Positions 23,410 through 34,184 of a DNA stretch of 64,000 bases are shown piece by piece. The stretch comes from Chitinophagales bacterium (lineage in GTDB: Bacteria > Bacteroidota > Bacteroidia > Chitinophagales > Chitinophagaceae): assembly GCA_013298665.1 (NCBI GenBank), contig JAAFIK010000017.1:1-64000 (forward strand), written 5' to 3'. Under the pieces are notes generated by a model that saw only the letters and a list, made by a program, of their open reading frames with translations, ran no database searches and was not told where the DNA came from. The translations under genes and the position numbers were made by a program. Positions within the stretch are counted from its first letter, which is position 1, and every line of letters starts with the position of its first letter.

Positions 23410-23457
23410 CCCGCAAGGTTATTTTAACCCAAATCGTAGTTATTGCGGGGCTTTTTT
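23410..23457 (+). terminator. Terminator-like hairpin ahead of the sensor kinase
   Basis: CCCGCAA (23410-23416) pairs with TTGCGGG (23443-23449), followed by GCTTTTTTC. A second hairpin, GGTTA/TAACC (23417-23429), is nested inside. It lies on the + strand about 94 nt before the kinase start with no + gene in front of it, so it may end a small RNA or act as an attenuator. Confidence 0.5.
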
Positions 23458-23550
23458 CTATTTTTAGGTTTCTTACCGGGTACGCGACTGGTACTTCCCC
23501 ATCAGGTATGTAAAAGCCTCCCCCGCCGGGTTAAAGCCAGGATACTGCTC

Positions 23551-26442
23551 ATGCAATCAAAACTGCTGTATATCATTTGTATGTTGCACTTTGCCATTTT
23601 TGGTAAAGGGTTCGCACAATCAACACAGGCCGTTACCTACACCACAAAGGATGGACTGCCTTCCAATAATATATACCTCACCCGTATCGACAAAAAAGGG
23701 TTTTTATGGATCGCTACCGACAATGGGTTAGCCCGGTTTGACGGAAAGAGATTTAAAGTATTTACCACCGCACAAGGCCTTACCGACAATGAAATCGTGG
23801 ATCTGCATATCGACAGCAATAATGTTATATGGGCCATACCATTCCTGCACACACCCTGCTATTTCAATGAAAAAAAGCAGCGGTTTGAAAATCCGGATAC
23901 AGATCCCGAGTTGGGAAAGATTATTGTTGGTAATACCAACAGCGTCAGCGCTTTACGTTTCGGAGGCATTTTGTTTGGCACCAATACCCGTAATGCCTAT
24001 CTCTACCGCAATGGAAAAACAACCCTTTACCAGGAGTATATTGGCAAAAGACTATCTGCATTCAGAAAAGCCGTGGACTACCAGCCGGATAAGTACCTGC
24101 TCTTTTCTGATGACAGTATCCGGCGTTTTGAAGAGGGAAAAATAAGTGCCTCATTTGCAGCGCCCAAAACACTGTCGTCCATCACACTCCTTTACGACCG
24201 TGTTGCCGCAGTAATGAATGACGAAGTAATGGTGATGCGGGTAGCCGGTGATGGTATACCACAGGTGCTGCACCAGAAAAAATTCAGCTTCCCGGTTACC
24301 TTTTTTTCCTTTACGGGCAAACATTTTATGGTAGTAACCCATACCGGCAGCAAATACCTCGTGGATACGGCTACGCTGGAGATCAGGGAAGAACTGGTAA
24401 ACAGCAATACCGTCAGAAGTGTGCTTGAAGACAACAATGGAAATACATGGCTCTGTACCGTCAACAGCGGACTGATCAAAATACAGCCCAAAAACATCAA
24501 ACCATTTTTTCCGGCAGAACTCGCGGCAACCTTCAATACGCTGGCCAAAACCAGCCAATTGCTGATATCGGGTAATAATTCCGGCGAACTCATCTCTTAC
24601 GATGGCCTGTTTCACATCAATAAAGTACAACTATCCGATGCTAAAAAGCTCGATGGCACCATACGTAAAATTATACCCCTGCCCGAAGCCATATTTGTAT
24701 CCTGCCAGGGAGGGTCGGTATTGATGAACAAATCGGGTACAAAGATACTCAGGCGGTTTGAGCGATCGCGCAACAACGCATCCAAAATGGCGGCTAAAAT
24801 CAATGATTCCATGATTTGTATGGGGTCGCATGCCATGGCTTATAAGTACAACTATTACCGGAATACCTATACAGACAGCGTGTTGAAACGGGTATCGGCA
24901 CTTTGTGTAGACAAGGACGGAGACATTTATATCGGCTCTACAGACGGCATTTACAAATGGACCGCCAACCACCTGCAGACCTTCGGTCAGCGCCATAAAG
25001 CCCTTTCTTACCGTACCAATACCATCATTCAAAGCCCTGAGGGACTGGTTTGGGTGGGTTTGGGCACCGATACACTGGTCGTAATGCAGCAGGATAACCC
25101 GATCGCCTTCATCCCCCTTGGCCGGGCCATCATTGGCAGTATGTGCAAGGCCCTTTATTGCGACAAACCGGGCCAGGTATGGTTGGGTACCAATAAAGGA
25201 TTGAATAAAATCAACTACAGTTTTGCAGACAATACATTTACCTACAGCAGCACAGCATTTGGCATGGCTGATGGCTTACCCGGCGAGCAGGTTAACGACA
25301 TCACCGGCTTCAACGATACCATGTACGTTGCTACACAGGGAGGGCTCTGTTTTCTGCCGGAAAACCTGCGGGTTGACACAAAGGACATTCCCTCCTTTAT
25401 CAACAGCGTAAGCATCAACGGTACAGACCGGGTACTGGAGCCATCGTACGAGCTGAATTATGATGAGAACAACATCAGCATAGATTTTTCAGGAATTGAC
25501 CTCAGCGGATTTATTCCCCATTTTGAATACAGCATCAATAACGGGTCCTGGCTACCCACCGAACGCATCGAACTCAGCCGGTTGGCTCCGGGGTCGTACA
25601 ATATCCGCATAAGAGCCATCAATCGCGACAGCACACCCTCTGCCCGGGAAGCAAGGATTGATTTTTATATCCGTACCCCCTTCTGGAAGAATAGTCTTTT
25701 CTGGTTGCTGGCCACGTTCCTCTGCTTTGGAGCAATCATTTATTTTTTACAGAAACGGAGCCGGGAAAAACAGCGGCTCGCACTTGCACGGTCGGAAACG
25801 GAAAGAAAACTCGCACAATTGGAAATGCAGGCGCTGATGGCGCAGATCAATCCCCACTTTGTATTCAATTGCCTCAACTCCATTAAAGGGCTGGTATACG
25901 ACAAAGCCTACAAACAGGCCGACAGCTACCTGGATAAGTTTGCCGATCTTTTACGCAGCACAATGGATAATGCCGAAGCTTCGGTGATCACGCTGGAAAA
26001 GGAAATCAATTACCTCGATACCTACCTGCAATTGGAAAAGCTTCGGTTTGACAATACCTTTGATTACGTCATCAATGCCAATGCAGCCATAGATGCCCGT
26101 TCATGCTATGTACCGGCCATGCTGCTGCAGCCATATGTAGAGAATGCCATACGCCACGGTGTCCGTTACCTCGACAGCCGGAAAGGCAATATTACCATTT
26201 CGGCACATACAACAAAAGATACACTGGTATTTACCATTGAAGATGATGGCATCGGCCGCGCAAAAGCCCAGGCACTCAAAAGCAGCCGGCATATGGAATA
26301 CCAGAGCCGGGGAATGCTGCTGAGCAAAAGAAGGGCTGAGTTGTACCAGATCGGACAGCAAGTGATCGACAAAACAGACGAAACAGGAAACGGTACAGGA
26401 ACCATCATTGTATTACAGATACCGCTGTCACTTAAACCATAA
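23551..26442 (+). CDS. Two-component sensor kinase with reg_prop beta-propeller (LytS type)
   Basis: A 963-residue membrane sensor. After a signal peptide (MQSKLLYIICML...FAQS) comes a large periplasmic beta-propeller of two-component-regulator repeats (for example TKDGLPSNNIY and DNNGNTWLCT), a Y_Y_Y domain (about 620-700), one membrane segment (about 711-733) and a His_kinase domain. The phosphoacceptor is H769 in QINPHFVFN; the ATPase N-box is LLQPYVENAIRHG. ATG 23551 is chosen for the signal peptide. The partner regulator follows by 8 nt. The ligand is unknown; in gut relatives such sensors often read glycans. Confidence 0.92.
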   Translation: MQSKLLYIICMLHFAIFGKGFAQSTQAVTYTTKDGLPSNNIYLTRIDKKGFLWIATDNGLARFDGKRFKVFTTAQGLTDNEIVDLHIDSNNVIWAIPFLHTPCYFNEKKQRFENPDTDPELGKIIVGNTNSVSALRFGGILFGTNTRNAYLYRNGKTTLYQEYIGKRLSAFRKAVDYQPDKYLLFSDDSIRRFEEGKISASFAAPKTLSSITLLYDRVAAVMNDEVMVMRVAGDGIPQVLHQKKFSFPVTFFSFTGKHFMVVTHTGSKYLVDTATLEIREELVNSNTVRSVLEDNNGNTWLCTVNSGLIKIQPKNIKPFFPAELAATFNTLAKTSQLLISGNNSGELISYDGLFHINKVQLSDAKKLDGTIRKIIPLPEAIFVSCQGGSVLMNKSGTKILRRFERSRNNASKMAAKINDSMICMGSHAMAYKYNYYRNTYTDSVLKRVSALCVDKDGDIYIGSTDGIYKWTANHLQTFGQRHKALSYRTNTIIQSPEGLVWVGLGTDTLVVMQQDNPIAFIPLGRAIIGSMCKALYCDKPGQVWLGTNKGLNKINYSFADNTFTYSSTAFGMADGLPGEQVNDITGFNDTMYVATQGGLCFLPENLRVDTKDIPSFINSVSINGTDRVLEPSYELNYDENNISIDFSGIDLSGFIPHFEYSINNGSWLPTERIELSRLAPGSYNIRIRAINRDSTPSAREARIDFYIRTPFWKNSLFWLLATFLCFGAIIYFLQKRSREKQRLALARSETERKLAQLEMQALMAQINPHFVFNCLNSIKGLVYDKAYKQADSYLDKFADLLRSTMDNAEASVITLEKEINYLDTYLQLEKLRFDNTFDYVINANAAIDARSCYVPAMLLQPYVENAIRHGVRYLDSRKGNITISAHTTKDTLVFTIEDDGIGRAKAQALKSSRHMEYQSRGMLLSKRRAELYQIGQQVIDKTDETGNGTGTIIVLQIPLSLKP

Positions 26443-26450
26443 ATCAAAAC

Positions 26451-27215
26451 ATGACTACAATCAGTTGTATTATTCTCGATGATGAGCCCCAAAACGTAAA
26501 GTTGCTCGGACACATGATAGCAGAATATTGTCCGCACCTGCAGGTACTCGCCGCAGAAACCAATGCAGAAAAGGGGCTTACCCATATAGAAGCCCTCCAG
26601 CCGCAGTTGCTCTTTCTTGATGTGGAAATGCCCAGACTTAACGGGTTTGATGTATTAAAGAAACTGGAGCCTGTTGACTTTGAGGTCATCTTTGTTACAG
26701 CCTATAACAAATATGCCGTAGAAGCCTTCGAAGTACATGCCACTGGTTTTATCACCAAGCCCGTAGCCGCTGAAAAACTAATCGCCGCGGTAGAAACGGC
26801 AACCCGCCGTATTGCGGAAAAGGCCGTTAATAAAAACATTTTCAGTCTTCTGGCACAAACCACAACCGATAACCACGCACAGAAGATCCCGCTATCAACT
26901 TCAAACGGATTGCTTTTTGTAAAAATAGCAGACATCATGTATTGCGAAAGCAGCGGAAACTATACCCATTTTTTCATGAACGATGACCAGAAAATTGTAG
27001 TAAGCCGCCAGTTGGGCGAATATGAAAAACTATTGCCCGAAAAAGATTTTATCCGCATACACGACAAATACATCATCAACCTGTCGTATATAAAAGCCTA
27101 TATTAAAGGTAGTGGTGGTGATGTGGTGCTGGAAAATGGGCGCGAACTCCCGGTAGCCAGCCGGCGCAAGGATGATTTTTTACTGCGCTTTGAGAAATGG
27201 CTGCGGCGGAAATGA
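26451..27215 (+). CDS. LytTR-family response regulator
   Basis: A 254-residue regulator with a receiver domain (phosphoacceptor D57 in LFLDVEMP, conserved Thr and Lys in FVTAYN and ITKPV) and a C-terminal LytTR DNA-binding domain (DIMYCESSGNYTHFF to VASRRK). It starts 8 nt after the kinase gene and is the natural partner. No target operon is obvious, because the next genes are on the opposite strand. Confidence 0.94.
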   Translation: MTTISCIILDDEPQNVKLLGHMIAEYCPHLQVLAAETNAEKGLTHIEALQPQLLFLDVEMPRLNGFDVLKKLEPVDFEVIFVTAYNKYAVEAFEVHATGFITKPVAAEKLIAAVETATRRIAEKAVNKNIFSLLAQTTTDNHAQKIPLSTSNGLLFVKIADIMYCESSGNYTHFFMNDDQKIVVSRQLGEYEKLLPEKDFIRIHDKYIINLSYIKAYIKGSGGDVVLENGRELPVASRRKDDFLLRFEKWLRRK

Positions 27216-27630: not shown

Positions 27631-29055
27631 TTAATTTATCCTCCATCGAATAAAAATATGTCCATTTACTGGCCGGGAGGTACTTACAGAACCAGCAAAT
27701 ATGCTGGTGATTGGCATATGTGCATCACAGCCAATTTCAAACGTCTTTAAATTGTATGATACCCCAAGTCTTGCTGAAATAAAAGAGGATTTAAAGTATT
27801 TCCAGTCTTGTGATGATTTTTTAATTCCATATAACGAATCAGTAAGTAATACGCCACTTGACAACCGTGTTGTTTGCTGATTTATCAACGCTGCATACTG
27901 CCAATTAAAATTAAGGCCGCCACCAATATTCCATTTAGTACTTAGATGGTAATTGTATTGCAGTCCTACGTATACAGAGTTTGTTTTAATTAAAACCGTG
28001 TTTCTCCGGATCAGCGTTGAATCCTGAACAGAAAAAGAGCCAGTAAAGGTTGCAACAACTTTACTTCCGGTAAAATATTGCTGCTCCGGTTTCAGCAATA
28101 ATAATAATTCATTGGCCCGTTTTCCGATAATTTTACTTACCCATAAACCAGGTAGCAGTAAATTATAAGGCTGGTTTTTAGCATTTGTGCCGGTAAAATA
28201 TTCATTAAATCCATAGACAGGAATATTTACATTCCATTGGATACCGTAATGAAATGCCGCTCCGTTTTTATTGTTTTTCCTTCTGCTTTTGTTGGTGGAA
28301 GTTGTTGGTGATGATTGGTTAGCCGTAATGCTATCCGTGTTTCTGGAGGCTGTAACAACCTTGGGAGAATCAATCAAACTTACCTCCGTGTTTACCCTGG
28401 TTGGTTGGGAAGCCTGTTTGGTATTAACTGTTTGGGCAGAATCATTCAAGCCTTTATTTTCTGCTGTCCTTTTTTGATTCTGTGTGCCACTCAGGGTACT
28501 GATGTTCTGGTCAGGATAATTACTCCCCGTATTTGGAAACCGTATTGGTTTCTGTTTTACTGTGTCTTTGAGCAAGAGGTTTCGTACAATTGCATCCTTT
28601 TTCTTTATAGTTTGGTTTTTAGTTTTGAGGTTCCTGTTTTGCAATGTAGCATTGGCTTTTGCCAAAGGTTTTTTGCTGATATTTGTGTTTACTTTCTGCG
28701 GGTCTGGTTTTTGTCTCTGCTTTGGAGGGTTATCCTGGAATATCACATATCCGGAATAAAAGGAATAATATAAAGAAGTAGTTTTTCTTATCTGCTGAAG
28801 AATTTCCTGGATAGAATACCGGGATTTTTTAAAATTAATTTCTTTAGATCCTTTCACCTTTACTGAGTTAAAGGAAAATCTAATTGCACTTCTTTTATGA
28901 ACAACTTTTGTGAGTGAGTCCAATGAAATATTTCCATCAAGCAAAAAAATGTCTTTATCCGCTTTTGACTGCTTCAGTTGCCCTTGTGCAATAGTGTATT
29001 TACTCGCTGAAAAAACGAGAAACAATATCAGGCAAATAAAATATCGCTTATTCAC
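27631..29055 (-). CDS. STN-domain protein with C-terminal beta-barrel
   Basis: A 474-residue exported protein. A signal peptide (MNKRYFICLILFLVFSA) is followed by an STN-like domain (about 38-110: SLDSLTKVVHKRSAIRFSF and SIQEILQQIRKTTSLYYSF), a long polar low-complexity linker rich in Lys, Asn, Thr and Gln (about 112-265), and a C-terminal region of alternating beta strands ending in FIRWRIN. This looks like a small outer-membrane barrel rather than a TonB receptor. It overlaps the fecR end by 8 nt, so it should be the surface partner of that anti-sigma factor. The composition is A+T rich. Function is inferred from domains and context only. Confidence 0.7.
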   Translation of the reverse strand: MNKRYFICLILFLVFSASKYTIAQGQLKQSKADKDIFLLDGNISLDSLTKVVHKRSAIRFSFNSVKVKGSKEINFKKSRYSIQEILQQIRKTTSLYYSFYSGYVIFQDNPPKQRQKPDPQKVNTNISKKPLAKANATLQNRNLKTKNQTIKKKDAIVRNLLLKDTVKQKPIRFPNTGSNYPDQNISTLSGTQNQKRTAENKGLNDSAQTVNTKQASQPTRVNTEVSLIDSPKVVTASRNTDSITANQSSPTTSTNKSRRKNNKNGAAFHYGIQWNVNIPVYGFNEYFTGTNAKNQPYNLLLPGLWVSKIIGKRANELLLLLKPEQQYFTGSKVVATFTGSFSVQDSTLIRRNTVLIKTNSVYVGLQYNYHLSTKWNIGGGLNFNWQYAALINQQTTRLSSGVLLTDSLYGIKKSSQDWKYFKSSFISARLGVSYNLKTFEIGCDAHMPITSIFAGSVSTSRPVNGHIFIRWRIN

Positions 29056-29941
29056 ATCCTTCTCCGGTTAATACAACTTGATTATTCTTTTCATCGATTT
29101 GATAACTAAAATTGAGTGTGTAAGCCAGTACATCAAATACTTCTTTCAGACTCCTGTTATCAAATCGTGTTGTTATCCTGCAGTTGTACAGGTTCTTATT
29201 TTTAAATACTATGGTAACCCCATAAGTGTTTCCTATAGATTCAGCAGCTTCTTTAAGCGGGGTATCCATAAATTCAAAGATCCTTGTGGCATAACTGAAT
29301 AAACTTACATCAACCTTTTGCTTATCACTCATATGCCTGGTTTTTTCATCATACTTCAAGGCCTCTCCTGCATTGAGTGTAATTTTTTTTCCATCTGCTT
29401 CAATTACAGCGCTTCCTGATTGTATATGTACAGATGAAACAGCCAATACTGTATCAAAAGATACATAAATATCTGCCTGTACGGGTACTACATCAAGAGT
29501 GCCGGCTTTTAAATGATGTGCTGGTTGGTTACTGATTTGTCCTTCGGCGAAATAAGCAGCGCCCTTAACAGCGGTTTGCCTTTCTTCAGCCGTATTACCA
29601 AGTTCACTGATGCTGCTGTTTTTGTTTAAAAATGCTACCGTGCCATCTGATAAAATAACTTTCTGCGGTTGGGCATGACTATAATATGTTTTTACTGAAG
29701 GTTGTTTTTGGGGTGTATCATTCAAAAAATAATATGCAGTTACTGCCATAATTATTAATCCAATTCCTGCATAAGTAAAATATTTTGCGGGAAAAGGTTT
29801 GCCTGATTTACCCAGGTTCGCTTTTCCTGGCATATTGTTAAGCAGATTTTTCATATCAGCCCATGCCTCATCTGCAGGAATATCCGGTTCTGGATAATTT
29901 TTTTGATTCAAGTGATTGCTATGTAAATTTTTGTCATCCAT
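29048..29941 (-). CDS. FecR-family anti-sigma regulator
   Basis: A 297-residue single-pass membrane protein. Residues 1-55 are cytosolic and would bind the sigma factor; a membrane segment (FTYAGIGLIIMAVTAYYFL) follows. The periplasmic FecR domain then has VILSDGTVAFLNKNSSI, AVKGAAYFAEG and a C-terminal STN-like region (PLKEAAESIGNTYGVTIVF). It overlaps the sigma gene end by 8 nt and the STN-barrel gene start by 8 nt, so the three are translationally coupled. I chose MDDKNLH at 29941; an earlier start at 29965 is possible. Confidence 0.88.
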   Translation of the reverse strand: MDDKNLHSNHLNQKNYPEPDIPADEAWADMKNLLNNMPGKANLGKSGKPFPAKYFTYAGIGLIIMAVTAYYFLNDTPQKQPSVKTYYSHAQPQKVILSDGTVAFLNKNSSISELGNTAEERQTAVKGAAYFAEGQISNQPAHHLKAGTLDVVPVQADIYVSFDTVLAVSSVHIQSGSAVIEADGKKITLNAGEALKYDEKTRHMSDKQKVDVSLFSYATRIFEFMDTPLKEAAESIGNTYGVTIVFKNKNLYNCRITTRFDNRSLKEVFDVLAYTLNFSYQIDEKNNQVVLTGEGCE

Positions 29942-30476
29942 TTTTTTTAATATTATGTTGTTCAAAAATTATTTTAAGCCTGCATCGGCATTCACTGAGG
30001 TGCCATTTTACCGCTCCTTCTTTCATATCAATAGAATCTGATATTTCTTTCATAGAGAAACCTTCCAGGTAATAAAGGCTGCAAACACATCTTGTTTTTG
30101 CCGGTAATTTATCCAGGTAATAGTAAATATCTTTCCATTCAAGCTGCTTAAACGGGTTGTTGTCAGTTTTTTCTTTTACATTTTCAGTCAGTTCAAAGGT
30201 GAGGTTTGTTTTCTTATCCCTGATTACAGTAAGTGCCGAATTTCTAACTATTGTATAGACCCAGTTAAAAAAAGTGCCTTTACTTTCATCATATTGTTCT
30301 ATATTTTTAAAAACCCTCAACATTCCATTGTTTAAAGCAGTTAGTATATCATGATTATCTTCAAAGAAGGTTTTGCACAACGCAAATAAAGCAGGGTAAA
30401 ATTGCCGGTACAATTTTTCCTGGCTCAGTTGATTCTGCTTTTTACAGCCTGCAATAATATGTGAGATATTTTCCAA
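29934..30476 (-). CDS. ECF-type RNA polymerase sigma factor
   Basis: A 180-residue group 4 sigma factor. Region 2 includes FFNWVYTIVRNSALTVIRD, and region 4 has LPAKTRCVCSLYYLEGFSM followed by the recognition helix KEISDSIDMKEGAVKWHLS. Genes of this type pair with FecR in Bacteroidota, and fecR follows directly. A strong hairpin separates it from the lipoprotein gene upstream. It is the best candidate to read the bipartite motif found upstream of the lipoprotein and the peptide/radical SAM genes, though that is untested. Confidence 0.92.
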   Translation of the reverse strand: MENISHIIAGCKKQNQLSQEKLYRQFYPALFALCKTFFEDNHDILTALNNGMLRVFKNIEQYDESKGTFFNWVYTIVRNSALTVIRDKKTNLTFELTENVKEKTDNNPFKQLEWKDIYYYLDKLPAKTRCVCSLYYLEGFSMKEISDSIDMKEGAVKWHLSECRCRLKIIFEQHNIKKNG

Positions 30477-30486
30477 AACTTAAAAT

Positions 30487-30521
30487 GGAGCCGTTTTGCT
30501 TTTCCCGTCCAAAACGGCTCC
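30487..30521 (-). terminator. Hairpin terminator between lipoprotein and sigma genes
   Basis: A perfect 12-bp inverted repeat: GGAGCCGTTTTG (30487-30498) and CAAAACGGCTCC (30510-30521) around an 11-nt loop. On the minus strand it follows the lipoprotein stop and is followed by ATTTTA. It would end the lipoprotein transcript or limit read-through into the sigma operon. Confidence 0.75.
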
Positions 30522-30539
30522 GTAAATTTAATTTATTTA

Positions 30540-31283
30540 CTATAAACTGGTTGGAGAAATGATAACACCTGTTGTGTAAGGCCAATTTATTGTATAGCTG
30601 TTGCCGGTTTTAACAATTGTTCCTGAATAAGTCGTACCATTAAAATTAATGGTAAGCGTACTCGTACCACTCGCAACAGGATATAAATAACTAAACCCGC
30701 CTGCCTTTGCTGTTCCCGCAGTACAACCAGCAGGTACAGATACTCCGGTGAAGTTAATTCCGTAGCTGTTTGTTCCTGAAGTAAAGGTTGACAACAAGGA
30801 ATTGCTTAAGCATGTATAGCTATTAGTGGTTAAAGCAGATAAAATCAAGCCTGAAGCAGAACCGGAGTCCATCCTTGATGCTGTAATTTTAATTACTTCC
30901 CCTGCAGAAAATGATAATGTGGTTGAGGGAGTTCCGCCACCGCCACTACCGCCGCCTGTGTAACTTGAATCTGAAACAGAAACAGACCTGGAAGCAGAAA
31001 CATTTCCTGCAACAGCAGTAACAACGTAATTACCCTTTGCCCCGAACATTATTGATGCCTGGTTTCCACTGGCATTAATTTGTGTATTGGCGGAAGGATT
31101 TACACTCCAGTTTACTGTGCTCCCGGCAGGTTGCGATAATGTAAATAGCACCGGTTCACCTTTTTTAACTAAACTGGTTTTGGTAGCATCTAAGCCGGCA
31201 GTACCAATAGTATCATTTTTTTTGCAGGCCATAAAGCCAATTGTCAGCAGTAACCCTAAGGTCAAGATTTTTACTTTTTTCAT
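30540..31283 (-). CDS. Surface lipoprotein with PKD-like domain
   Basis: A 247-residue lipoprotein. The signal ends in the lipobox GFMACKK (Cys20). An Ig/PKD-like domain follows (about 35-105, with GSTVNWSVNPSAN and GNYVVTAVAG), then a Gly-rich linker (TGGGSGGGG) and a Ser/Thr/Gly-rich C-terminal domain with two Cys. It should sit on the membrane, perhaps at the cell surface. A conserved bipartite motif lies 38 nt upstream and a strong terminator downstream, so it is probably its own transcript. The function is unknown. Confidence 0.8.
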   Translation of the reverse strand: MKKVKILTLGLLLTIGFMACKKNDTIGTAGLDATKTSLVKKGEPVLFTLSQPAGSTVNWSVNPSANTQINASGNQASIMFGAKGNYVVTAVAGNVSASRSVSVSDSSYTGGGSGGGGTPSTTLSFSAGEVIKITASRMDSGSASGLILSALTTNSYTCLSNSLLSTFTSGTNSYGINFTGVSVPAGCTAGTAKAGGFSYLYPVASGTSTLTINFNGTTYSGTIVKTGNSYTINWPYTTGVIISPTSL

Positions 31284-31320
31284 TTTGTAATTGCTTTTAA
31301 TTGAATAAACTTATTTGTCT

Positions 31321-31357
31321 GATAGATAAACTACAGGAGGATAACAAAAGGTTAGGT
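31321..31357 (-). promoter_or_regulatory. Bipartite promoter-like motif, copy 1
   Basis: The minus strand reads ACCTAACCTTT, 11 nt, then TGTAGTTTATCTATC. The second copy at 34148-34184 has the same first block, the same spacer length with unrelated sequence, and 13 of 15 matches in the second block. Two conserved blocks with a fixed neutral spacer are what a sigma-factor promoter looks like. It lies 38 nt upstream of the lipoprotein start. Confidence 0.5.
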
Positions 31358-31465
31358 CGGGTCAGAATTATTTTAGCGTACAGCAACGAAAGGGGGTAGC
31401 ACTAAGCGGGTGGACAGTAGCAGTTTGTTGAGTAAATATATTTGTAACAGTAATAAATAACTAAT

Positions 31466-31608
31466 TTATCCCAAAAGTAAAATGGATCACAAAAACACTA
31501 AGAACCACGAAGTGCACAAAGAAAATCTTACAGGTTTTCCTGCCCTCGTGCTCTTTATGACGGCTTTGCGCCCTTTGTGTTCCCTTACGAAAAGGACTTT
31601 TGAGATAA
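31466..31608. repeat. Palindromic intergenic element
   Basis: Outer arms TTATCCCAAAAGT (31466-31478) and ACTTTTGAGATAA (31596-31608) pair with one mismatch. Inside are CCACGAAGTGCACAAAG and CCTTTGTGTTCCCTTACG, and CAGG-TTTT-CCTG forms the central turn. It resembles the CACGAAG/CACAAAG intergenic repeat seen in many unrelated bacterial genomes. It lies between the oxidoreductase stop and the lipoprotein promoter. The rest of 31284-31648 holds only the bipartite motif. Confidence 0.6.
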
Positions 31609-31648
31609 GTTCTGGTCATATTTTTCTGCCACAGGGAATGCGGTTAGC

Positions 31649-32689
31649 TTAAACCTCGGTGGTTTTTTGTTTAATATAGTCCAGCACCCTCCATGTTTCC
31701 AGCAGCATTAAAGCAGCGCTTTTATTTGCATTTGCACTGCCACTAACAAGCTTGATAAACTCCCGTAGTTCATTGTAGTATCCATGCAGGTAAACAGGGT
31801 TTTGCTCAAGTACAGGTGCGCCATTGTTCACATTCAACAGTTCAATGTACTCGGGCTTCCGGCTAAATATTTTTTCTGCGGGAATGGAGAAAACACCACC
31901 TTTTTTCTTTCTAATGATAATTTCACCGGGGTAAGTTGCTGTTGCGGTCTTATCCGGATAATTAATGGATATTTTGTCTGTAAAACTCTTCCAGCTATAG
32001 GCAGTAGACAGTTCAACATTACCGATTACTCCGCTCTCATGCAGGATGTTTATTGCATAACTGATATTGTGGCCGCCGGTACGTGAAAGGATATTTATTC
32101 TGCTTACGCTTCCGAAAAGAAAAACAATATTATCAACAGCATGTGAAAAGAGTTCATACAATGCATCTCCCTCAGGGTATGAACCTGTGAGGTATTGATA
32201 ATTATACGACAGGGCATTGGCAGATTTCTTCAGGTATTCATTTACTATGCCATACCTTTTTTGAAATGCAATCAGGCATTTAGTCCCACCCGTTTCATCA
32301 AGTTGTTTTAATTCTGACATGCTGAAACAAGGAGGCTTTTCTAAAAAAACATATTTGCCTGCTTTTAATGCTGCCATGGCATATTGGAAATGAAGCGAAG
32401 GTTTTGTGCAGATAAAAACAGCTTTTACAGCGTCATCGGTTAAAATGGTTTCAATATTTGTGCAGGGTTGGCACCCTGGAAATCGCTGTGCAGCCATTCC
32501 GGCAACTTCTGCATCTCTTGAATAAATATATTTTACCGGGATACCCAGATAATGCAGACAGGGAAATAGATTTTGACGGCTGTGGCTTCCCACCCCGATA
32601 AAAGCAAAAAAATCTCCCTGCCGGTGAACAATGCCCAAAGAGGTTTTCCTGCGCAGATTCTTTAGTTGGTTAATAAGTTTGTCCTGCAT
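31649..32689 (-). CDS. Gfo/Idh/MocA-family oxidoreductase
   Basis: A 346-residue NAD(P)-dependent oxidoreductase. The Rossmann fold starts late, at FIGVGSHSRQN (about 31-40), after about 28 extra N-terminal residues. The family EKP motif is present (E117-K118-P119), and CLIAFQKRYG starts the second domain. Members act on sugars, inositols and similar alcohols. It lies 14 nt downstream of the radical SAM gene, so the two enzymes are almost certainly co-expressed. The substrate is unknown. Confidence 0.85.
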   Translation of the reverse strand: MQDKLINQLKNLRRKTSLGIVHRQGDFFAFIGVGSHSRQNLFPCLHYLGIPVKYIYSRDAEVAGMAAQRFPGCQPCTNIETILTDDAVKAVFICTKPSLHFQYAMAALKAGKYVFLEKPPCFSMSELKQLDETGGTKCLIAFQKRYGIVNEYLKKSANALSYNYQYLTGSYPEGDALYELFSHAVDNIVFLFGSVSRINILSRTGGHNISYAINILHESGVIGNVELSTAYSWKSFTDKISINYPDKTATATYPGEIIIRKKKGGVFSIPAEKIFSRKPEYIELLNVNNGAPVLEQNPVYLHGYYNELREFIKLVSGSANANKSAALMLLETWRVLDYIKQKTTEV

Positions 32690-32703
32690 TTGTACTGTTT
32701 CTG

Positions 32704-33882
32704 TTACTTGCTTTCAGAAATATAATTCTTATAAGAAGTATTCTCAGTTTCGCACCATTGATAATAACCTAAAAGTTTTTTTGTAGCATTTCGTCCAAAC
32801 ATTTTTTCAAAATTCCTGAACAGCACAATATCATACTTACGGTGAAAATTTATCCAGCATTTATTGCAGTTATGCACATAGTACTCCTGTGTTTTCTTCA
32901 CGGCTACATCGTTAATAATTTCATCAAGGGATGTACTGTTTACATTTCCCAGCATAACATCCAGGTTCTGACAAATAGGGACATCTCCGTTTGGTAAAAT
33001 AACGAGGTTGTCCCGGATAGAATAGCAGGGCAATACCAGATCTCCCTTTTTCCATTCTTCATAAAGCACAATGAAATCGTAGTTTTCTTTAAACTGACTG
33101 ATTTTCTCATAAATTAATTTTCTATCAAAGGGTTTTTGCAAAGTATCAGTGGCTTTTGAAGAAGGCGGCGTGTTGTTTTTTATACCCACCATATTTTTCA
33201 GTTCAGAAACCTTGAGTGGCTCTTTTATTTTCAGCGAAGAAACCTCATTAGTGTGCGCTTCATCAATGGTGTCAAAAAAGGCGATATTATTGTAAATACC
33301 GATACGCAAATCAAGGCTGTATTTTTTACACACTTCCGCCACATGAAACATATCATCAAAACCATTGTATGGCGACAGCGTAAACATTACAGAAACAGGA
33401 ACTGTTTGATGAAGTGACTCTATTACTTTTATCACCTTTTTGTATCCGTCTTTTCCCCGCATATACAAATAAGTTTCTTCTGTTCCATCAAGAGAAATAA
33501 ATAACCGCCTTGGTTTGTATTTCCCTGCTAATGTAATTAACCTTTCTGGTTGTAAACAATTTGAAAGCAGGTCGTAGTTCTTATGATTAAGGCTGAACCA
33601 TTCCAATATTTCTTCAGCTTCAGGATGCAATAGAAACTCACCGCCCTCCAGCCCAACGTTCGTATTCTGAGTAACACAGGAACTCTTCATTATTTCCAGT
33701 ATTTTACTCGTGGGCATATACACAATTGGGCGTTTAGCCCAAATAAGACAATGTTTGCATCGGGAATCGCATATATCAGTTGCGTAAAACATCAGTTTAC
33801 TCAACTTCTTTTTGGAAGAAGGCAGGTATTGCTGCTTCAAAAAGTTAACACCCTTGGCCAAGTAATCAGTTGCTGTATACAT
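32704..33882 (-). CDS. Radical SAM/SPASM-type enzyme
   Basis: A 392-residue iron-sulfur enzyme. The radical SAM cluster motif is C38-X3-C42-X2-C45 (ICDSRCKHC), with the SAM-binding GLEGGEFLL block following. A SPASM/twitch-like C-terminal region carries C286, C304, C339 and C342 (CYSIRD, PNGDVPIC, NCNKC), enough for an auxiliary Fe-S cluster. Such enzymes mature peptides or modify sugars. A 37-codon membrane peptide gene ends 10 nt upstream, and a Gfo/Idh/MocA oxidoreductase follows by 14 nt. The target, peptide or small molecule, cannot be read from sequence. Confidence 0.88.
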   Translation of the reverse strand: MYTATDYLAKGVNFLKQQYLPSSKKKLSKLMFYATDICDSRCKHCLIWAKRPIVYMPTSKILEIMKSSCVTQNTNVGLEGGEFLLHPEAEEILEWFSLNHKNYDLLSNCLQPERLITLAGKYKPRRLFISLDGTEETYLYMRGKDGYKKVIKVIESLHQTVPVSVMFTLSPYNGFDDMFHVAEVCKKYSLDLRIGIYNNIAFFDTIDEAHTNEVSSLKIKEPLKVSELKNMVGIKNNTPPSSKATDTLQKPFDRKLIYEKISQFKENYDFIVLYEEWKKGDLVLPCYSIRDNLVILPNGDVPICQNLDVMLGNVNSTSLDEIINDVAVKKTQEYYVHNCNKCWINFHRKYDIVLFRNFEKMFGRNATKKLLGYYQWCETENTSYKNYISESK

Positions 33883-33892
33883 TTAGTCGATT

Positions 33893-34006
33893 TTATATTA
33901 AGTAGATTAGGGTAGCTATGAGAAAACCGATTCCCGTGATGGCTATAATAAGATAGTAGATTGCTTTTGCAAGAAGCCACCATTTCTCTTCTTCATTATT
34001 ATACAT
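33893..34006 (-). CDS. 37-codon single-pass membrane peptide ahead of radical SAM gene
   Basis: ATG 34006 to TAA 33893 encodes 37 residues: a polar head MYNNEEEKWW followed by a hydrophobic stretch (about 11-37) ending LIATLIYLI. The stop is 10 nt before the radical SAM start, and the bases before ATG are purine-rich (AAAGAAAATAAG). It may be a small membrane partner or the substrate of the radical SAM enzyme. It has no Cys and no typical RiPP leader, which weakens the substrate idea. The frame is open further upstream to a TTG at 34060. I do not recognise the family. Confidence 0.5.
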   Translation of the reverse strand: MYNNEEEKWWLLAKAIYYLIIAITGIGFLIATLIYLI

Positions 34007-34147
34007 CTTATTTTCTTTACTGAGCTGATTCTGATTTTTAAATGATTCGCTGCAGGACAATAATTACTCCACACTAATTCATGTAAACCATGTATGAATA
34101 AGTAAAGCAACTGATGCAGACCAGTTTAGAAAATGAATCCTCGTGCA

Positions 34148-34184
34148 GATAGATGTACTACAGAGAATGCAAGAAAGGTTAGGT
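34148..34184 (-). promoter_or_regulatory. Bipartite promoter-like motif, copy 2
   Basis: The minus strand reads ACCTAACCTTT, 11 nt, then TGTAGTACATCTATC, matching the copy upstream of the lipoprotein. It lies 142 nt upstream of the small peptide gene and would drive the peptide, radical SAM and oxidoreductase genes, leaving a leader of about 130 nt. Confidence 0.5.

Follow-up and report, generated by a model that had tools for sequence, protein, structure and literature searches.

How can an extracytoplasmic function (ECF) sigma factor with a FecR-like partner respond to the cell surface when no TonB-dependent receptor accompanies it, and does the same sigma factor also serve a radical SAM enzyme encoded beside it? 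Both questions are raised by a block of seven minus-strand genes in a 64,000-nucleotide stretch (hereafter the window) of a Chitinophagales bacterium (assembly GCA_013298665.1, contig JAAFIK010000017.1, our contig C18; the draft genome comprises 4.83 Mb in 108 contigs). The block encodes a small membrane peptide, a radical SAM/SPASM enzyme, a Gfo/Idh/MocA oxidoreductase (Gfo), a lipoprotein, the sigma factor, a FecR protein and a protein with an STN domain and a barrel (STN-barrel). All seven, proposed in a first-pass annotation made from the letters alone, proved to be open reading frames with the domains assigned to them: Radical_SAM, SPASM, GFO_IDH_MocA, ECF sigma regions 2 and 4 and FecR_C lie above the Pfam cut-off, and STN (E = 5.2e-5) and FecR (E = 4.3e-4) below it. 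Most named relatives of these genes come from Chitinophagaceae or from elsewhere in Bacteroidota. The annotation was also right that no TonB receptor stands next to the block, which is flanked by a histidine kinase/LytTR pair and by an amidohydrolase gene. We consider it probable that the block joins a split dual-membrane-spanning anti-sigma factor and a peptide-radical SAM-Gfo cassette under one ECF sigma factor.

The FecR and STN-barrel pair and its one-piece relatives

We classified the genes downstream of sigma at 43 loci (the window, 40 loci of relatives and two of congeners, with four further listed places left out). A one-piece barrel protein follows sigma at 31 of them, a FecR gene plus an STN-barrel gene at 9, and the remaining 3 (L121, L122 and L174) were left unassigned. 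In the one-piece proteins, a sigma-binding segment is followed by a single membrane helix, and a long tether of low complexity leads from there to a barrel. Excerpted accounts describe such an arrangement in a single protein for Dma1/Dma2 of Bacteroides thetaiotaomicron, with the barrel in the outer membrane (PMC13088901), and the same domain order for the barrel anti-sigma factor of Phocaeicola vulgatus (EcfO-Reo; PMC9308784, PMC13114119); our comparison with these proteins was one of layout. The Dma type is further marked by a cognate sigma factor of group ECF21.

Two profiles, each built from ten local one-piece proteins, connect both window proteins to this family. The profile of the N-terminal 80 residues matches residues 9-86 of FecR (E = 6.5e-17; next window reading frame, E = 8.7), and the barrel profile matches the C-terminus of the STN protein (E = 1.2e-78). 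Both profiles recover 20 of the 31 one-piece proteins, and the barrel profile alone recovers the other 11, whose N-termini show, by eye, an AW motif and a hydrophobic helix. In an AlphaFold2 model of the STN-barrel protein, an STN domain (37-107) is followed by a low-confidence segment (115-265; predicted local distance difference test score below 50) and a barrel (268-472), so a folded domain is predicted where the Pfam STN match stays below cut-off. The model of a one-piece protein (P0317) has helices at 23-35 and 55-72, low confidence at 72-239 and a barrel at 243-449. Foldseek places OmpA, OmpX and Ail at the top for the STN-barrel, although the TM-scores are modest (0.4-0.5, by target). 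FecR_C in the window FecR is a strong Pfam match (E = 7.7e-16), and the FecR proteins at six Niastella-type loci are just 195-206 residues long. From these sequences and models, FecR plus STN-barrel looks like a Dma-type anti-sigma factor cut in two, with the FecR_C and STN domains filling the gap. The missing TonB receptor can then be explained by the FecR and barrel parts being one protein at 31 of the 43 sigma loci.

Since FecR_C and STN are domains of cell-surface signalling systems, one might suppose instead a FecR/FecA-type pair, unrelated to Dma, whose TonB receptor has decayed to a small barrel. However, both the barrel and the sigma-binding segment match the one-piece proteins by profile, the sigma factor groups with theirs, and Pfam scans found no plug or TonB-receptor domain in the STN-barrel protein. 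We have set the degenerate receptor aside because of the matches to the one-piece relatives, and regard it as very unlikely.

The 9 split loci group together as a single clade in the sigma tree (support 95/84; 94% of 200 bootstrap trees), which is sister to the one-piece locus L152 (97/90), with further one-piece rows outside. The tree is midpoint-rooted, so the split form is derived unless the true root falls inside the split clade. Both forms occur within the genus of the window, the split form in the window and in genome G017 and the one-piece form in G654 and G660, and the sigma factor is present in 4 of 93 genomes of the genus, the window's own included. A lipoprotein homologue precedes sigma in 24 of the 40 relatives' loci. 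The series lipoprotein, sigma, anti-sigma, barrel is a recurrent module. The surface system put forward as undescribed in the first-pass annotation is, in its sigma/FecR/STN-barrel part, a two-piece variant of the Dma type and not a new kind, and its proposed role in surface sensing is plausible.

Module and cassette as separate units

Among the 39 sigma-bearing genomes, the window's own included, a radical SAM match occurs in 10. In another search, of 39 genomes with the window's own among them, 4 gave a radical SAM match at E<=0.001; the best match beyond the window's own genome is a 65-residue radical SAM piece with a stop in the congener G017 (L103, 9922-10113), which converges on the STN-barrel gene. 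We reject the idea that the module must include the cassette, and we treat the lipoprotein-sigma-FecR-STN module as one unit and the peptide-radical SAM-Gfo cassette as another. Linkage of the seven genes in relatives, on which the first-pass annotation staked its proposal, was found for the module, which recurs, and mostly not for the cassette.

Base composition sets the block apart, as had been noted: it has 37.5% G+C, against 47.2% and 47.6% in the 10-kb flanks, whereas the module in nine related loci is at most about 3 points off its own 20-kb surroundings. This contrast fits a recent acquisition of the block in this genome. We found no empty insertion site: six congeners have the kinase/LytTR pair, and the 6.7-15 kb fetched beyond the pair gave no amidohydrolase or prfA match.

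A bipartite motif ahead of both units

The first-pass annotation was right that one bipartite motif stands ahead of both the lipoprotein and the peptide/radical SAM unit. This promoter-like motif, ACCTAACCTTT-N10-CTGTAGT-N2-ATCTATC, begins 74 nt ahead of the lipoprotein start and 178 nt ahead of the peptide start. The pattern was derived from both window sites, so their matching it is uninformative; the draft genome contains no third site at <=3 mismatches (2 sites in total; backward control, 0). When the two upstream regions are compared, the best 37-nt match has 26 identities, a value equalled by 2 of 500 Markov shuffles.

A related element also accompanies the sigma factor elsewhere. CYAACCTT is found within 1300 nt upstream of sigma at 28 of the 43 loci, the window among them, and on the reverse strand at none of the 43; in 200 Markov shuffles the mean was 2.2 and the maximum 8 of 43. 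These two controls replace the backward one (10 of 43), which is invalid, since the reversed word and the forward motif overlap. In nine related genomes (Niastella-type and two other genera), a pattern derived from those same loci marks the module in 9 of 9, perfectly in 6 (control, 0). A second site, with 1 mismatch, occurs in 3 of the 9, each time ahead of a glycosyltransferase gene; at L207, L208 and L209 it lies at 1501-1530, just before that gene, which is followed by a small gene. Taken together, these counts suggest that both motif sites in the window may be read by its own ECF sigma factor.

The peptide-radical SAM-Gfo cassette

The best 80 of 346 loci with radical SAM relatives in the genome collection were examined. 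The radical SAM motif CX3CX2C (C38, C42, C45) and four C-terminal SPASM cysteines (C286, C304, C339, C342) are invariant across 25 aligned sequences, and the SPASM match in the window enzyme has E = 1e-8. At 56 of the 78 loci with full reading frames, a Gfo homologue is encoded no more than 1 kb from the radical SAM gene, in convergent orientation (21), upstream on the same strand (19) or downstream on the same strand (16); it is farther off at 2 loci, and none was found in the stretch examined at 20, some of them on short contigs. The pairing of radical SAM with Gfo is widespread in Bacteroidota. A Gfo-family gene also lies within 9 kb of the one-piece sigma module at L153 and L154, where no radical SAM match was found.

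Some neighbours of the radical SAM relatives are of the glycan type: GT2 glycosyltransferase families (at 10 and 8 loci), an acyltransferase (at 10) and a short-chain dehydrogenase (at 8). UDP-glucose dehydrogenase, dTDP-4-dehydrorhamnose epimerase, GT25 and a Wzz-type kinase occur at 1-3 loci each. Two further families, of about 476-513 residues (24 loci) and about 666 residues (8 loci), gave no Pfam match at the thresholds used and look like polytopic membrane glycosyltransferases. The commonest other neighbours, which are a protein of about 1,690 residues (28 loci), a tyrosine recombinase (26) and a riboflavin-synthase-like lumazine-binding protein (25), are not recognizable as glycan genes, and the glycan context is therefore only partial. 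Excerpts of one report state that loss of the Phocaeicola barrel anti-sigma factor, or activation of its system, lengthens O-antigen (PMC9308784). Partly for this reason we favour, tentatively and at somewhat less than an even chance, a cassette that remodels an envelope glycan.

A different function is conceivable, in which the radical SAM/SPASM enzyme matures the 37-residue peptide as in pairs for ribosomally synthesized and post-translationally modified peptides, Gfo is a helper, and the regulon makes a modified membrane peptide. The peptide gene stands 10 nt ahead of the radical SAM gene in the window and 9 nt ahead in the ten Chitinophaga-type loci described below, where the peptide is under purifying selection, and SkfB, a peptide maturase, is the sole relative with a solved structure at E<=1e-5. 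However, the peptide is nearly all membrane helix, and a clear counterpart occurs in just those ten of the 82 relatives' loci scanned (L031 is a possible case), whereas Gfo is the usual neighbour. Peptide maturation thus seems an unlikely function.

A parallel in Chitinophaga

The order of the window cassette recurs in ten Chitinophaga-type loci (one labelled Flavihumibacter), each with a membrane peptide of 38-40 residues, the radical SAM gene and Gfo. The proportion of nonsynonymous differences between the peptides is lower than that of synonymous ones (pN < pS) in all 21 pairs compared. When the similarities between the window peptide and six of these peptides are added up, 4 of 3000 shuffles reach the total; taken singly, they are reached by 4-44 of 3000. 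At six of the loci (L037, L039, L040, L042, L043 and L044), a sigma/FecR/STN-barrel operon is convergent on Gfo.

Cassette and sigma operon also have a motif in common there. In 6 of the 10 genomes the pattern TARGGGTA-N13-GTGTTRT, derived from these loci and counted genome-wide at <=1 mismatch, precedes the cassette as well as the sigma operon beside it; all 12 sites are perfect, and the two sites of a pair lie about 5 kb apart. Extra sites are absent from G695 and G696, limited to one with 1 mismatch in G691 and G693, and represented by a third perfect site in G692 and G694. In these last two cases (L195 and L187, at 1501-1530) the third site lies about 0.24 kb before a GH18-like lipoprotein gene. 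The six two-site genomes are close kin, and we count them as one event. Likeness between the upstream regions, judged by shuffling at four of the six loci, is clear at L037 and L039 (0 of 300).

The Chitinophaga operon resembles the window in its three genes, their order, their near-equal spacing and a motif in common with the adjoining sigma operon, but it differs in the motif itself and in the convergent layout. Its sigma factor has no BLASTP match to the window sigma at 1e-4, and its FecR matches at 23-25% identity. That the cassettes of the window and of Chitinophaga go back to one origin is set aside as a demonstrated fact: the radical SAM tree, in which long branches were flagged as meeting, is compatible with a single origin or with more than one.

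Several observations weigh against a single regulon. The cassette adjoins the module in only 2 of the 39 sigma-bearing genomes (by contig position), namely the window and the broken remnant in G017. CYAACCTT is missing from 15 of the 43 sigma loci, and the Niastella-type motif marks the module alone, or the module and a glycosyltransferase gene, and never the cassette. Among the Chitinophaga-type genomes, 3 of 10 have no pattern site, with TAAGGGTAT ahead of the peptide gene instead, and G697 has just one 1-mismatch site, located elsewhere. Since the backward control matched 6 times across these ten genomes at <=1 mismatch, lone 1-mismatch sites are at chance level. The upstream likeness is weaker at L044 (3 of 300) and absent at L042 (59 of 300).

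These points, together with the A+T-rich and seemingly acquired block and the two shuffles that equalled the upstream likeness, could be taken to mean that the motifs are read by another factor, or are alike through chance or transfer, and that the units are mere neighbours without a common function. Against this stand the restriction of the motif to two sites in 4.8 Mb, the related motif at the module in all nine related genomes, and the Chitinophaga parallel. Moreover, the window's own genome has only 2 FecR_C proteins, so a chance adjacency is unlikely here; it is likelier in Chitinophaga, if FecR_C proteins are many there. We therefore consider mere neighbourhood distinctly unlikely. The single regulon of the first-pass annotation gains support from the two-site count and from Chitinophaga, but the seven genes do not make up one conserved system.

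The lipoprotein, the intergenic hairpin and the surroundings

The positions of all features are collected in Table 1. The lipobox of the lipoprotein was recognized by eye, and its PKD match is weak (E = 0.006). Between the lipoprotein and sigma genes, the segment 30478-30540 folds with a z-score of -5.9, and other hairpins were seen by eye at the same place in 8 of 20 relatives folded (L117, L146, L147, L150, L158, L159, L161 and L212). The hairpin would act as an attenuator that leaves the lipoprotein as the main product. The end of the sigma gene overlaps the start of the FecR gene, and the end of the latter overlaps the start of the STN gene, so that the three look translationally coupled.

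Table 1. Features of the block, with strand and the basis of each assignment
Feature	Position	Strand	Basis
Promoter-like bipartite motif 1, upstream of peptide-radical SAM-Gfo	34148..34184	-	two sites in draft genome at <=3 mismatches
37-residue single-helix membrane peptide gene	33893..34006	-	sequence; similar peptides in ten loci
Radical SAM/SPASM enzyme	32704..33882	-	Pfam; relatives across Bacteroidota
Gfo/Idh/MocA oxidoreductase	31649..32689	-	Pfam; near radical SAM in relatives
Promoter-like bipartite motif 2, upstream of lipoprotein-sigma operon	31321..31357	-	two sites in draft genome; related CYAACCTT element in relatives
Lipoprotein (PKD-like, Gly-rich linker, conserved C-terminal domain)	30540..31283	-	lipobox in sequence; homologues before sigma
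Attenuator-like 12-bp hairpin with a U-rich tail, lying between the genes for lipoprotein and sigma	30487..30521	-	fold of -23.6 kcal/mol for 30478-30540
ECF sigma factor	29934..30476	-	Pfam and TIGR02937
FecR-like anti-sigma factor: N-terminal sigma-binding segment, membrane helix, FecR and FecR_C domains	29048..29941	-	Pfam; profile match
STN domain, disordered tether and small outer-membrane barrel	27631..29055	-	AlphaFold2 model; Foldseek; barrel profile

Between the Gfo and lipoprotein operons, 31470-31620 has the look of a dispersed repeat (CTTTGTGCACTTCGTGGTTCTT), and a similar sequence precedes sigma at L162. The large sensor kinase and LytTR response regulator next to the block (23443-27215, plus strand) are kept as a pair in the six congeners mentioned above. 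Scans for tRNAs and Rfam families found nothing, and scans for sigma-70 promoters and for terminators gave results near chance.

Proposed mechanism and relation to known systems

The arrangement suggests the following course of events. One unit would comprise the lipoprotein, sigma, FecR and STN-barrel, with FecR holding sigma at the inner membrane and the barrel seated in the outer membrane. By analogy, a contact between FecR_C and STN may bridge the cut tether and restore the span. We derive this contact from the Fox system, in which, according to excerpts of the published account, the C-terminal (STN) domain of FoxR contacts the FoxA signalling domain in the absence of signal and shields FoxR from proteolysis (PMC11637429). 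A disturbance of the outer membrane would break the contact, FecR would be exposed to proteolysis and degraded, and sigma would be freed to transcribe from both bipartite promoters. From the first promoter, the lipoprotein would be the main product, with sigma and anti-sigma placed behind a hairpin that may lower read-through. The second would drive the other unit, the small membrane peptide, radical SAM enzyme and Gfo, which most likely would alter an envelope sugar.

With Dma/Das and EcfO-Reo, as excerpted, the window shares an ECF sigma factor beside an anti-sigma factor with a cytoplasmic sigma-binding segment, a membrane helix, a disordered tether and a C-terminal barrel, and also lipoprotein-type outputs. 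It differs from these systems in that its anti-sigma factor is two proteins from overlapping genes with FecR_C and STN between the halves, in that the cassette has the same motif, and in that its lipoprotein has no NigD match in Pfam. With FecI/FecR/FecA and Fox it shares an ECF sigma factor, a FecR with FecR_C and an STN domain on the outer-membrane partner; unlike FecI/FecR/FecA and Fox, it lacks a TonB-dependent receptor or plug, and in place of the receptor a disordered tether carries a small OmpA-like barrel. A literature search on barrel anti-sigma factors, FecR/STN, and radical SAM with Gfo found neither the split form nor the radical SAM-Gfo pair described in titles and abstracts, where names printed with slashes (Gfo/Idh/MocA) may escape a search, so that absence from print is not proven.

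On a longer time scale, it is possible, with the balance close to even, that the anti-sigma factor was cut once and rejoined non-covalently by FecR_C and STN, as a working intermediate between Dma and FecAR, and that the cassette, as an envelope-modifying one, was captured at least 2 times, by two different barrel-sensing sigma systems, each time by gaining the private promoter of that sigma.

How a signal reaches a cytoplasmic sigma factor from the outer membrane without a TonB receptor is an open question for the Dma type. A natural two-piece form would reveal the point at which the chain can be severed and the parts that take over there, and covalent and non-covalent versions of one device may then be compared directly. 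Dma-type signalling would also gain a small set of targets, with two motif sites genome-wide, which includes an enzyme pair of unknown chemistry that is spread through Bacteroidota.

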